Assembly (NCBI GenBank): GCA_001028815.1
Contig: LDJB01000005.1
Coordinates: forward strand, 42,684 to 106,683
From: Peptococcaceae bacterium 1109
GTDB taxonomy: Bacteria > Bacillota > Limnochordia > Darwinibacteriales > Darwinibacteriaceae
Reading direction: 5' to 3'
DNA length: 64,000 nt
Below, piece by piece: positions 44,955 to 48,330 of this stretch. How positions within the stretch are numbered: the stretch's first letter is position 1; every line of letters starts with the position of its first letter. The notes under the pieces were generated by a model, which did not search any database, was not told the DNA's origin, and saw only the letters and a program-made list of their open reading frames with translations. The position numbers and the translations under genes were made by a program.

Positions 44955-44958
44955 ATGG

Positions 44959-44981
44959 CCCCGCCAGCAGGCGGGGTTTTT
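44959..44981 (+). terminator. Intrinsic terminator
   Basis: CCCCGCC, AGCA, GGCGGGG, then TTTTT, five bases after the glycosidase-like gene. Confidence 0.9.
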
Positions 44982-44991
44982 CCTTGCAAAT

Positions 44992-45033
44992 TTGACCTGG
45001 ATCATTTTTTGCCGCTCCCGTGCATGCTAGAAT
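44992..45033 (+). promoter_or_regulatory. FNR/CRP-type box and -10 element (class II promoter)
   Basis: TTGAC-CTGG-ATCAT (44992-45005) and TAGAAT (45028-45033). If transcription starts near 45040 the box is centred at -41.5, the class II position where FNR/CRP proteins activate. An almost identical arrangement occurs at 47260-47301. Confidence 0.7.
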
Positions 45034-45079
45034 GAATGCAGCGACTGAAACCCAGAGATTCTGAGAAGGAGAGATAGAG

Positions 45080-45373
45080 ATGGCAAGATTCACAGAAGCA
45101 CTGGCGCGCAACCTCGCCACATTGGAGCAGTATGTCCCCATCGTAGCACGGGTTCACGGGGGGACCCACCCCGAGTTCCACCATGTGCGGCGCATCTTTG
45201 ATGCACTGAACGAGAAGATTAAGGCGGAAGGCACAAACCGGCCTGACCTGGCTGCTGAATTTTCAGAGCTGCGGAAGATCACGCAGGACTACACTGTGCC
45301 CGGAGACGTATGCGAAACCTATGCCGCTGTGTACAACATGCTGGCTGAACTGGATGAAGCATACCACGCCTAA
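45080..45373 (+). CDS. RIC/hemerythrin-like short protein
   Basis: 97 residues, soluble and helical, with PIVARVHGGTHPEFHHVRRI, a pattern matching the HGG-x-HPE segment of the iron-sulphur cluster repair (RIC/ScdA/YtfE) hemerythrin domain. It is only about half the family length, so it would supply only part of a di-iron site. It lies 24 bp before a P-type ATPase gene, behind an FNR-type box. A link to nitrosative stress or anaerobic metal handling is inferred. Confidence 0.6.
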   Translation: MARFTEALARNLATLEQYVPIVARVHGGTHPEFHHVRRIFDALNEKIKAEGTNRPDLAAEFSELRKITQDYTVPGDVCETYAAVYNMLAELDEAYHA

Positions 45374-45397
45374 GTTTTTTAACGAAAGGGTGAGGAT

Positions 45398-47248
45398 ATG
45401 CAGCGCTTGATTCTGCGTAACCGCAATCAAATTGCATTGATCAGCGGGATTCTCATTGCCGCAGCATTCACAAGCAAGTTTGTCCTAGGCAGCCTGGTGG
45501 TCTTTGAATGGCTGCTGATCGTAGCTTCTATCCTAGGGGCCGCTCCCATTGGCATTCAAGCATACCAAGCCTTGAAAGTCAAAGTGGTGAGCATTGACGT
45601 CTTGGTGACCATTGCGGTAACTGGCGCTTTCCTCATCAGAAACTTTGAGGAATCGGCTATCGTAACCTTTCTGTTCCTGTTCGGCGCATACCTTGAGCAG
45701 CGCACGCTGAACAAGACCCGGTCCGCCATCAAAGAACTGACCGAAATGGCTCCCGAAAGCGCTCTGAAGAAGATGGCAGATGGGGAGTTTGTAGAGGTCC
45801 CCGTGGAAGATGTGGATTCAGGTGATGTCCTGCTCGTCAAAACTGGCGCTAAAGTACCGGTGGACGGTACGGTGCTCTCTGGAGAAGGGAGTGTGAACGA
45901 AGCCAGTATCACCGGGGAATCCATCCCTGTTCTTAAGGAAGCCGGTTCACAGGTTTACGCTGGTACCATCCTTGATAACGGCACCCTGCAGATCAGGGCG
46001 GACCGGGTGGGGGAAGATACCACCTTTGGGCGCATCATCGAACTTGTGGAGGAAGCCCAAGACTCCAAGTCTGAGGCAGAGCGGTTCATCGATCGTTTCT
46101 CGAGGTATTACACCCCGGCGATACTGGTGCTTGGCTTCATCGTGTGGTTGGTTTCCCGCAACCTAGAGCTGGCCATTACTATCCTAGTCTTAGGCTGCCC
46201 AGGGGCCTTGGTAATTGGGGTTCCTGTATCCAACGTGGCTGGAATCGGCAATGGTGCCCGCCATGGCATCCTCCTGAAGGGCAGTGAAGTGATCAGCGAT
46301 TTCAGCAGGCTGGATACGATGGTATTCGACAAGACAGGCACCTTGACCATGGGCAATCCTTCTGTAGCAGAAACGGAGTTCTACGGCGGGCATGGCGAGG
46401 AAGCATTAAGCTACTTGGCCAGTGTAGAACGGGAGTCGGATCATCCTCTTGCGAAGGCTGTCCTGGAGGCCATCGGGGAAACCGCTTACCACCCAGTCTC
46501 GGCCACAGAGGTGGTGAAGGGTGCGGGGATTGTGGCTACCGTAAATGGGCATAGGGTTGCTGTAGGGAATAGGGCTCTTATGGAACAGGAGCAGGTGGAG
46601 CTTAGCGACAAGGCCCAGGCGGACATAGCCCGCTTTGAACGGAACGGCAACTCCCTAGTGTTAACCGCTGTTGATGGACAGCTGAAGGTACTCATGGGAG
46701 TGCGGGACCAAGTCCGGCCCGGGGTCAGGGAGAACCTTCAGCGTTTGAGAAAACTGGGTGTGAAGCACCTGGTGATGCTCTCTGGGGACAACCAAGGTAC
46801 GGTGGATGCAGTCAGCCGGGAGCTTGGGCTAACCGAGGCTCACGGCAACATGCTGCCTCAGGATAAGTCGGCCTACATTAAAAGGCTGATTGATGCAGGC
46901 CGGGTTGTTGCCTTCGTAGGTGATGGCGTTAACGACAGTCCATCTTTGGCTCTAGCCCAGATCGGTATCGCCATGGGAGGCGGGACAGATGTAGCCATCG
47001 AAACATCTGATGTGGTCTTGATGAACTCTGACTTTGGCCGCCTGCCCCATGCCCTAGGGCTTGCTAAGGCCACCGCGGGCAACATGAAGCAGAACATTAT
47101 GATCGCGGTAGGAGTGGTCCTGGTGCTCCTGACGAGCCTCATCTTCAGCGACTGGATGAACATGTCCATCGGTATGCTGGTCCACGAAGGGAGCATCTTG
47201 GCAGTCATCCTAAACGGCATGCGGCTCCTGCGCTACCGGCTGCGCTAG
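45398..47248 (+). CDS. Heavy-metal P-type ATPase with CPG motif
   Basis: 616 residues with all P1B features except an N-terminal metal-binding domain: TGES (172-175), phosphorylation site DKTGTLTMG (D311) and hinge GDGVNDSP (508-515). The sixth-helix metal motif is GCPGALVIG: the second cysteine of the usual CPC is glycine, so ion choice may differ from Cu/Zn/Cd pumps. A separate HMA protein (47342-47569) could replace the missing domain. It sits in the inner membrane and exports a metal. Confidence 0.88.
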   Translation: MQRLILRNRNQIALISGILIAAAFTSKFVLGSLVVFEWLLIVASILGAAPIGIQAYQALKVKVVSIDVLVTIAVTGAFLIRNFEESAIVTFLFLFGAYLEQRTLNKTRSAIKELTEMAPESALKKMADGEFVEVPVEDVDSGDVLLVKTGAKVPVDGTVLSGEGSVNEASITGESIPVLKEAGSQVYAGTILDNGTLQIRADRVGEDTTFGRIIELVEEAQDSKSEAERFIDRFSRYYTPAILVLGFIVWLVSRNLELAITILVLGCPGALVIGVPVSNVAGIGNGARHGILLKGSEVISDFSRLDTMVFDKTGTLTMGNPSVAETEFYGGHGEEALSYLASVERESDHPLAKAVLEAIGETAYHPVSATEVVKGAGIVATVNGHRVAVGNRALMEQEQVELSDKAQADIARFERNGNSLVLTAVDGQLKVLMGVRDQVRPGVRENLQRLRKLGVKHLVMLSGDNQGTVDAVSRELGLTEAHGNMLPQDKSAYIKRLIDAGRVVAFVGDGVNDSPSLALAQIGIAMGGGTDVAIETSDVVLMNSDFGRLPHALGLAKATAGNMKQNIMIAVGVVLVLLTSLIFSDWMNMSIGMLVHEGSILAVILNGMRLLRYRLR

Positions 47249-47259
47249 CCCGAGCAAAT

Positions 47260-47301
47260 TTGACTCAGATCAATGTTTCTGGCGGGGATAGAGGTTATAA
47301 T
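47260..47301 (+). promoter_or_regulatory. Second FNR/CRP-type box and -10 element
   Basis: TTGAC-TCAG-ATCAA (47260-47273) and TATAAT (47296-47301), with the same spacing as at 44992-45033. Both share the flank CAAATTTGAC. Predicts a common FNR-like activator. Confidence 0.72.
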
Positions 47302-47341
47302 AGAGGCAGCAAGGACGATCGGCAAGAGGGGAGAATGGAAG

Positions 47342-47569
47342 ATGAAATCTGCAACAATTCAGTTGGAAACCCTAACATGCCCATCCTGCATGCAGAAGAT
47401 CGAAGGTGCGGTGAAGGGAGTAGCAGGCGTAGATCAGGACTCCGTCAAAGTGATGTTCAATGCCAGCAAAGTGAAGCTGAGCTTTGATGAAGGCCAGGTT
47501 TCCATCGAAGACATCGAGCAGGCTATTACCCGTGTAGGTTATGAAGTGCAAAAGACAAGCGTGAGATAG
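47342..47569 (+). CDS. HMA-domain metallochaperone
   Basis: 75 residues from the ATG at 47342; a longer frame from 47273 would overlap the promoter. The CxxC ligand is in LTCPSCMQKIEGAV. The ferredoxin-like HMA fold carries metals to P-type pumps, here presumably the adjacent ATPase that lacks its own domain. It has its own FNR-type promoter and terminator. Confidence 0.85.
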   Translation: MKSATIQLETLTCPSCMQKIEGAVKGVAGVDQDSVKVMFNASKVKLSFDEGQVSIEDIEQAITRVGYEVQKTSVR

Positions 47570-47582
47570 CTCAAGAGGCTTC

Positions 47583-47615
47583 AAGCTGTGCTTCCCAGTG
47601 AGGCACAGCTTTTTT
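47583..47615 (+). terminator. Intrinsic terminator after HMA protein
   Basis: AAGCTGTGC, 11-base loop, GCACAGCTT, with a T-run (six Ts at the end of the stem and after it). Confidence 0.88.
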
Positions 47616-47697: not shown

Positions 47698-48330
47698 GTG
47701 AAGAAGTTACAACAGCTGCCGGAGGCATGGCAGGTCTGCCTCGATTTGGCAGTCGAAGGGTACAATGCAGGGTCAATGGGTATAGCCGCAGTGATTGTGG
47801 ACAAGGCCGGAAATATAGTGGCTCGGGGCAGGAACCAGCTGCGGGACGACAAGGATTCTTGCAGTTCAATCCGCATGAGCTCTGTTGCCCATGCGGAGAT
47901 AAACGCTCTCAACAACTTGCCTCAAGAATACCGGGAGGATCGAGAACTGACCCTGTACACCACAGTGGAGCCCTGCCCCATGTGTTTAGGCGCGGTGGCT
48001 ATGTCAAGGATTCGAGCGATAGAAATCGGCTGTGCCGATCCTCACGCTGGCTCCATCGTCATGCTTGAGCACAATGAATACTTGCGGGGGAAGAACATTG
48101 CGGTGGAGTATGCTGGGGGCGAGGTGGAGAAGCTGTGCTTCTTGCTCCATTATCTTTCCATCAGGCGCGACCTCAGCCACAATCCTGGACACAGAATTTT
48201 CAAGGCTTTGGCTAGACGTTATCCCCACTACGTCCAGGCTATCGATGCTGTGTTGGAACGAGACGAAAGCCTACACAGGGGAGACATCACAACAGAGTTC
48301 CTTTACTACGCTTCTGCCCGGTTGGGGTAG
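47698..48330 (+). CDS. CMP/dCMP-type zinc deaminase
   Basis: 210 residues, GTG start with GAGAGGAG upstream. Zinc ligands and catalytic glutamate are in VAHAEINAL and TTVEPCPMCLGAVAMS, the cytidine/deoxycytidylate deaminase fold. About 80 extra C-terminal residues (SHNPGHRIFKALARRYPHYV) are not part of the core. Substrate could be guanine, a cytidine or a riboflavin-type base; not determinable here. Confidence 0.82.
   Translation: MKKLQQLPEAWQVCLDLAVEGYNAGSMGIAAVIVDKAGNIVARGRNQLRDDKDSCSSIRMSSVAHAEINALNNLPQEYREDRELTLYTTVEPCPMCLGAVAMSRIRAIEIGCADPHAGSIVMLEHNEYLRGKNIAVEYAGGEVEKLCFLLHYLSIRRDLSHNPGHRIFKALARRYPHYVQAIDAVLERDESLHRGDITTEFLYYASARLG

Follow-up and report, generated by a model that had tools for sequence, protein, structure and literature searches.

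P1B metal pumps usually stand under the control of metal sensors of the CsoR, CopY, ArsR or MerR kinds. The FixI/CcoI copper pumps of proteobacteria, which carry a CPC motif and serve the assembly of the cbb3 oxidase, have FNR or FixK as their regulator. Class II FNR control is in itself already well known. Two-cysteine FNR-like proteins have been described in Gram-positive bacteria, where their cluster is disputed (PMC5039431), and FlpA of lactic acid bacteria is listed among metal-homeostasis regulons (PMC3616900). How does a small set of metal-handling genes with FNR-type boxes compare with these systems? The set lies in the window, the whole stretch of 64,000 nucleotides from Peptococcaceae bacterium 1109 that was analysed, and comprises a gene for a RIC-like protein (ric), a P1B ATPase gene and a gene for an HMA protein, with one box in front of ric and the ATPase gene and another in front of the HMA gene. 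The boxes, their spacing and conservation, the domain content and the linkage of FNR genes in relatives were computed. At a probability of about 0.68, we read both boxes as FNR/FLP-type activator sites at the class II promoters of a two-promoter regulon of P1B pump, HMA protein and RIC-fold protein. The set would most likely be a dedicated metal-efflux module switched by a redox regulator of the FNR/FLP type.

The two promoters and their conservation

Both promoters have an inverted-repeat box of the type TTGAY-N4-RTCAW (Table 1), and in both the gap from the end of the box to the -10 hexamer is 22 bp. The preliminary description of this DNA had reported two TTGAC-N4-ATCA(A/T) boxes centred at about -41.5 and sharing a flank; the boxes are at those places, the common flank CAAATTTGAC is present, and, with the predicted start taken as 7 bp after the -10 hexamer, the centres fall at -41.5. 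At neither promoter was a sigma-70 -35/-10 pair found on the + strand. In the window the pattern TTGACN4ATCAW has two matches, which are the two boxes only, against 0.14 expected, and two or more matches turned up in 2 of 100 shuffled versions of the window. Terminator-like hairpins just before box 1 and just after the HMA gene make the set look like a closed, insulated unit; in the region, four terminator-like matches were found against 2.6 expected by chance.

Table 1. Features of the set, in window coordinates
Feature	Position	Strand	Remark
Intrinsic terminator, upstream gene	44957..44985	+	9-pair stem-loop 44957-44978, then T-rich tail
FNR-type box 1, TTGACCTGGATCAT	44992..45005	+	centre 44998.5 (-41.5); kept upstream of ric in relatives
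ric promoter, extended -10, TGCTAGAAT	45025..45033	+	hexamer TAGAAT 45028-45033, TGC in front
ric transcription start	45040	+	predicted
ric ribosome binding site AAGGAG	45066..45071	+	sequence
ric, 97-aa RIC-fold protein without di-iron ligands	45080..45373	+	TIGR03652, partial match
616-aa P1B heavy-metal ATPase, no HMA domain	45398..47248	+	TIGR01525
FNR-type box 2, TTGACTCAGATCAA	47260..47273	+	centre 47266.5 (-41.5); kept before HMA gene in 26 loci
HMA promoter, -10 TATAAT	47296..47301	+	22 bp after box 2
HMA transcription start	47308	+	predicted
HMA gene ribosome binding site GAGGGGAG	47326..47333	+	sequence
75-aa HMA protein with CPSC	47342..47569	+	PF00403, 42.7 bits
Intrinsic terminator 3' of HMA gene	47583..47615	+	12-pair stem-loop 47583-47611, then T run

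The whole genome (2.70 Mb) was scanned by pattern, with the reversed pattern as a control. The bare box gave 14 matches against 4 for the control, and most of the box matches examined fall within ORFs. When a -10 hexamer is asked for at 21-23 bp, two matches are left, only the two promoters of the set; this count alone is not significant, because the reversed control with a -10 at that distance likewise yields two. A wider FNR regulon in this genome was considered and set aside, as none of the remaining box matches is followed by a -10 at 21-23 bp and, among those examined, most are located within ORFs. The same applies to the box L006 upstream of a second regulator gene (L016, see below), which lies within an ORF and has no -10. 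Box-like matches in other genomes look, as judged by eye, like homologous coding stretches. The proof of the two boxes thus comes from their placement and their conservation in relatives.

To what extent are the promoters kept? Both the genomes of the same order and public genome contigs supplied relatives of the RIC-like protein. A box matching in at least nine of ten positions was found in 73 regions upstream of ric (the window included), which came down to 54 after removal of near copies, and the -10 played no part in this selection. A -10-like hexamer lies at exactly 22 bp in 49 of these 54 non-redundant regions, where shuffling leads one to expect 2.6. The box consensus is TTGA(T/C)(C/T)T(A/G)G(A/G)TCA(A/T), followed by TGCTAAAAT. 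For the HMA promoters, 26 regions with a box (16 non-redundant) were found; the -10 is at 22 bp in 11 of the 16 (1.1 expected) and at 23 bp in another 4. Three genomes, G013 (same genus), G014 and G019, each have the class II pattern exactly twice, at the two equivalent promoters. About 15 loci with genes of the module show no recognisable box. The observation itself is real, and the location of both boxes at predicted class II FNR-type promoters is confirmed. The claim of twin class II promoters, one for ric and the ATPase gene and one for the HMA gene, has strong comparative support, and comparative evidence likewise upholds the suggestion of a small regulon of metal-handling genes.

The module also occurs on plasmids. 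In pTO1 of Tetragenococcus osmophilus (L192, 1092-10732) it has five boxes, all with a -10 at 22 bp, which precede dps, the crp/fnr gene itself, a DUF6448 gene, HMA-ric repeats and the ATPase gene. As one box geometry is common to the tandem HMA-ric pairs, the DUF6448 gene and dps, the pTO1 regulon is suggested to be wider than that of this genome. A Leuconostoc plasmid has one box, with a -10 at 22 bp, before HMA-ric-ATPase, and a crp/fnr gene adjoins. In 50,697 phage records no ric was found. Near-identical copies of the module were seen at L083, L084, L087-L092, L094, L095 and L097, in assemblies named Globicatella, Enterococcus, Streptococcus suis, Hathewaya, Fusibacter and Clostridium; near identity among such differently named assemblies points to recent horizontal transfer of the module.

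The pump, the HMA protein and the RIC-fold protein

The ATPase scores 560 bits against TIGR01525 (cut-off 346) and has the DKTGT motif. Its M4 reads GCPG, with the proline of CPx-type pumps, and its M6 reads HEGS. The CPG is kept in 60 orthologues and is invariant down to 44% identity; the other two intact P1B pumps of this genome have CPC. Described P1B-4 pumps have SPC in M4 and HEGxT in M6 (PMC8880997), and the ATPase was rejected as a member since it has CPG and HEGS there. P1B-1 and P1B-2 were rejected as well, as M4 is CPG and not CPC. By its motifs the ATPase is a P1B pump, nearest to P1B-4 in M6 and outside all the subgroups tested. When part of the ATPase was compared with the PDB under a very strict cut-off, no match came up. 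Among 299 sampled genomes of the phylum, 42 carry the ATPase. The HMA protein is a probable metallochaperone. Which metal would be handled? The neighbours of the module gave no recurrent clue, except CRP/FNR genes. On the 3' side of the set, window positions 47698-48330 encode a 210-aa deaminase-like protein, whose TadA score of 46 bits is far below the cut-off of 150.

The RIC-like protein matches TIGR03652 with 51.2 bits, below the equivalog cut-off of 204.7. Its AlphaFold2 model has a pLDDT of 94, and a structure search with this model gave a Z of 11.7 to ScdA and 10.3 to YtfE; RIC proteins take all the top places (Z 10.0-11.7), with the next unrelated row at 8.7. Profile similarity to ScdA has an E value of 1.4e-9. 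The four-helix RIC/hemerythrin fold is thus predicted with confidence. Is it also a di-iron protein? The di-iron ligands of YtfE are H84, H129, E133, H160, H204 and E208 (PMC9268430), and none of the six is kept in the RIC-like protein, whose chain and structural match stop at YtfE position 203. In its C-terminal half the MAFFT alignment of the RIC-like set to YtfE is unreliable, and the comparison also drew on the ScdA profile alignment and the structural match. The name 'RIC-like' given in the preliminary description thus holds for the fold and not for the di-iron site, and repair of Fe-S clusters by this protein is not to be assumed, as the ligands are missing. Residues H26, H30, E32, C78 and E79 are invariant in the RIC-like set and could make another site. 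NCBI names relatives of the protein 'ric'; in such loci, the annotation 'iron-sulfur cluster repair di-iron protein, ric' is no guarantee of a di-iron site. Two genomes, G022 and G023, have the box, the pump and the HMA protein and no ric, which makes ric dispensable for the module.

Candidate regulators and signals

Two CRP/FNR-type proteins stand out in the genome, L015 and L016. L015 (G000:C2:179330-180010) is FNR-like and is not linked to the set. Its recognition helix TQETLSRK has the ExxSR pattern, aligned with E209, S212 and R213 of E. coli FNR. Cysteines are at positions 3, 5, 13 and 111, and the last two correspond to C29 and C122 of E. coli FNR; the C29 match was placed by hand from the downstream ungapped stretch, because automatic alignment shifts the N-terminus. 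The two extra cysteines stand in front as CxC, with a spacing that differs from that of E. coli FNR. Among relatives of L015 only the C29- and C122-equivalent cysteines are constant, and the CxC is present in most of them.

In relatives, no recurrent neighbour of the module is commoner than FNR-like genes, which supports an FNR-type regulator. At L082 and L107 ric and an L015-type gene are divergent, and at L101 such a gene lies close by. In L084, L087, L088, L090-L092, L097 and L102, loci that are mostly near-identical copies in assemblies of Lactobacillales and Clostridia, ric has a related FNR gene upstream. The proteins encoded there have a His-rich N-terminus and one cysteine, e.g. THTHHQGHESASHASC, where L015 has its cysteine cluster; the His-rich part is possibly a metal or haem site. 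In G022 a class II box drives HMA-ATPase-FNR, and this FNR is 57% identical to L015. Genes for a cation/proton antiporter-like protein and a small regulatory-like protein were seen directly before this box and its three genes (L195, G022:C149:2500-8500). In a distant clade of the pump (44-50% identity) an HMA-ATPase-FNR adjacency was seen, with an FNR gene beside the pump gene in five of six loci examined. Finally, within the order a close relative of L015 is present in 16 of the 21 genomes with ric and in 5 of the 15 without (p 0.017, kinship uncorrected); the 5 ric-positive genomes that have none include some that are incomplete. The adjacency of FNR genes and module, the G022 operon, the distant clade and the co-occurrence together make the L015-type FNR the best candidate regulator.

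What signal would such a regulator sense? Anaerobic control of the set is plausible from the regulator family, and the four cysteines make 4Fe-4S sensing likely in this genome. Activation through a 4Fe-4S cluster at low oxygen is not assured, since the family keeps only two of the cysteines throughout and the N-terminus of the Lactobacillales type is His-rich. These same features would suit an FLP-like regulator with two cysteines or a bound metal as its sensor, for which oxidation or excess metal, and not low oxygen, would be the signal that switches the pump on. The known two-cysteine Gram-positive proteins (PMC5039431), the listing of FlpA under metal homeostasis (PMC3616900) and the inclusion of dps in the pTO1 regulon also speak for it. 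Against it, the CxC in front brings the cysteines of this genome's FNR and of most relatives to four, as in FNR, and we regard the FLP-like alternative as rather doubtful.

Could the activator be L016 and not the stand-alone L015? L016 (G000:C1:1011513-1013012, - strand) joins a pyruvate formate-lyase activating enzyme (radical SAM) and a CRP/FNR-like regulator in one frame of 500 aa. An activase fused to a transcription factor is unusual; of the 36 genomes of the order, 22 have a fusion of the L016 type, for the most part with 72-85% identity. With L016 in control, the pump would be tied to fermentative metabolism. In L030, L032, L041, L042 and L074 the fusion gene stands immediately before ric. 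Within the order it is present in 17 of the 21 genomes with ric and in 5 of the 15 without (p 0.006, kinship uncorrected), and the recognition helix of L016, RRETITRK, is near the FNR type. However, this helix has TR in place of the SR of FNR, the cysteines are missing, and the adjacency to ric is confined to close relatives, while elsewhere the linked regulator is of the stand-alone FNR type. Control by L016 is thus unlikely.

Nitric oxide stress, which the preliminary description had suggested as a signal, fares worse. Here an NO-responsive regulator of the HcpR/DNR kind would bind the boxes and the set would serve nitrosative stress defence. A second HcpR consensus, ATTTGACCNNGGTCAAAT, has been published, for a regulon centred on hcp and frdX (PMC545781), and it resembles the boxes; a link between RIC proteins and NO stress is described for other bacteria (PMC9268430). 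But a search for hcp in this genome (97% complete) was negative, the genome has no further promoter of this type, and the di-iron ligands are missing from the RIC-like protein. What recurs beside the module is a CRP/FNR gene, and not genes of NO detoxification. An HcpR/NO regulon was rejected on the hcp search, and the NO reading as a whole is very improbable. That the boxes are chance matches, as bare matches inside ORFs and the equal count of the reversed control might suggest, is ruled out for practical purposes by the conserved footprint, with box, spacing and position kept across dozens of divergent genomes and plasmids.

Proposed mechanism and comparison with described systems

Under the favoured reading of an FNR/FLP-type activator, we infer transcription starts, activation rather than repression, a binding regulator, a signal and metal export, which would fit together as follows. 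The activator, in this genome most likely L015, would bind at -41.5 in its DNA-binding state, most likely when reduced or at low oxygen. Once bound, it would stand in for the -35 element and recruit RNA polymerase, turning both transcripts on. The HMA protein would then pass a soft metal ion to the pump, which would export it, with the RIC-fold protein as an accessory. If true, the efflux might be, e.g., of metal released when Fe-S proteins are damaged. More broadly, we would tentatively see in this a widespread, partly plasmid-borne Gram-positive module, with an FNR-family switch, a new CPG-type P1B subgroup, its own metallochaperone and a RIC-fold protein without di-iron site, in which redox and not metal concentration governs efflux; this wider picture is possible, though the odds are against it. 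The FNR/FLP-type redox regulator appears here as a dedicated switch of a CPG-marked pump subgroup, in a module that ranges over Clostridia, related Firmicutes and plasmids of lactic acid bacteria. Among the open papers that were searched, none was found that describes the module or this pump subgroup with a dedicated FNR switch. As targets, the analysis offers the promoter pair, the candidate regulator and the pump.

FlpA and FlpS are, like the candidate here, Gram-positive FNR-like regulators, some of them with two cysteines, and FlpA goes with metal homeostasis; these sources do not describe them as the dedicated switch of a CPG-type pump that comes with ric and an HMA protein (PMC3616900, PMC5039431). 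The second HcpR motif is a very similar box with an AT-rich flank, whereas hcp, central to that regulon, was not found in this genome (PMC545781). With the RIC proteins ScdA and YtfE the RIC-like protein shares the four-helix fold, but it is only 97 aa long and has neither the N-terminal ScdA domain nor the six ligands. Like P1B-4 pumps of the CoaT type, the ATPase is a short P1B pump without an HMA domain and with an HE motif in M6; it differs in M4, with CPG in place of SPC. The promoters resemble the class II FNR promoters of E. coli, with a TTGAT-N4-ATCAA-like box at -41.5, no -35 and a good -10. The candidate regulator resembles E. coli FNR in its ExxSR and its cysteines at the C29 and C122 positions; in contrast to the large anaerobic regulon of E. 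coli FNR, the search of this genome turned up only two promoters of the strict type. As in the FixI/CcoI systems, a P1B pump appears to be driven from FNR-type boxes, but here the pump carries CPG, and a ric gene and a separate HMA protein go with it.
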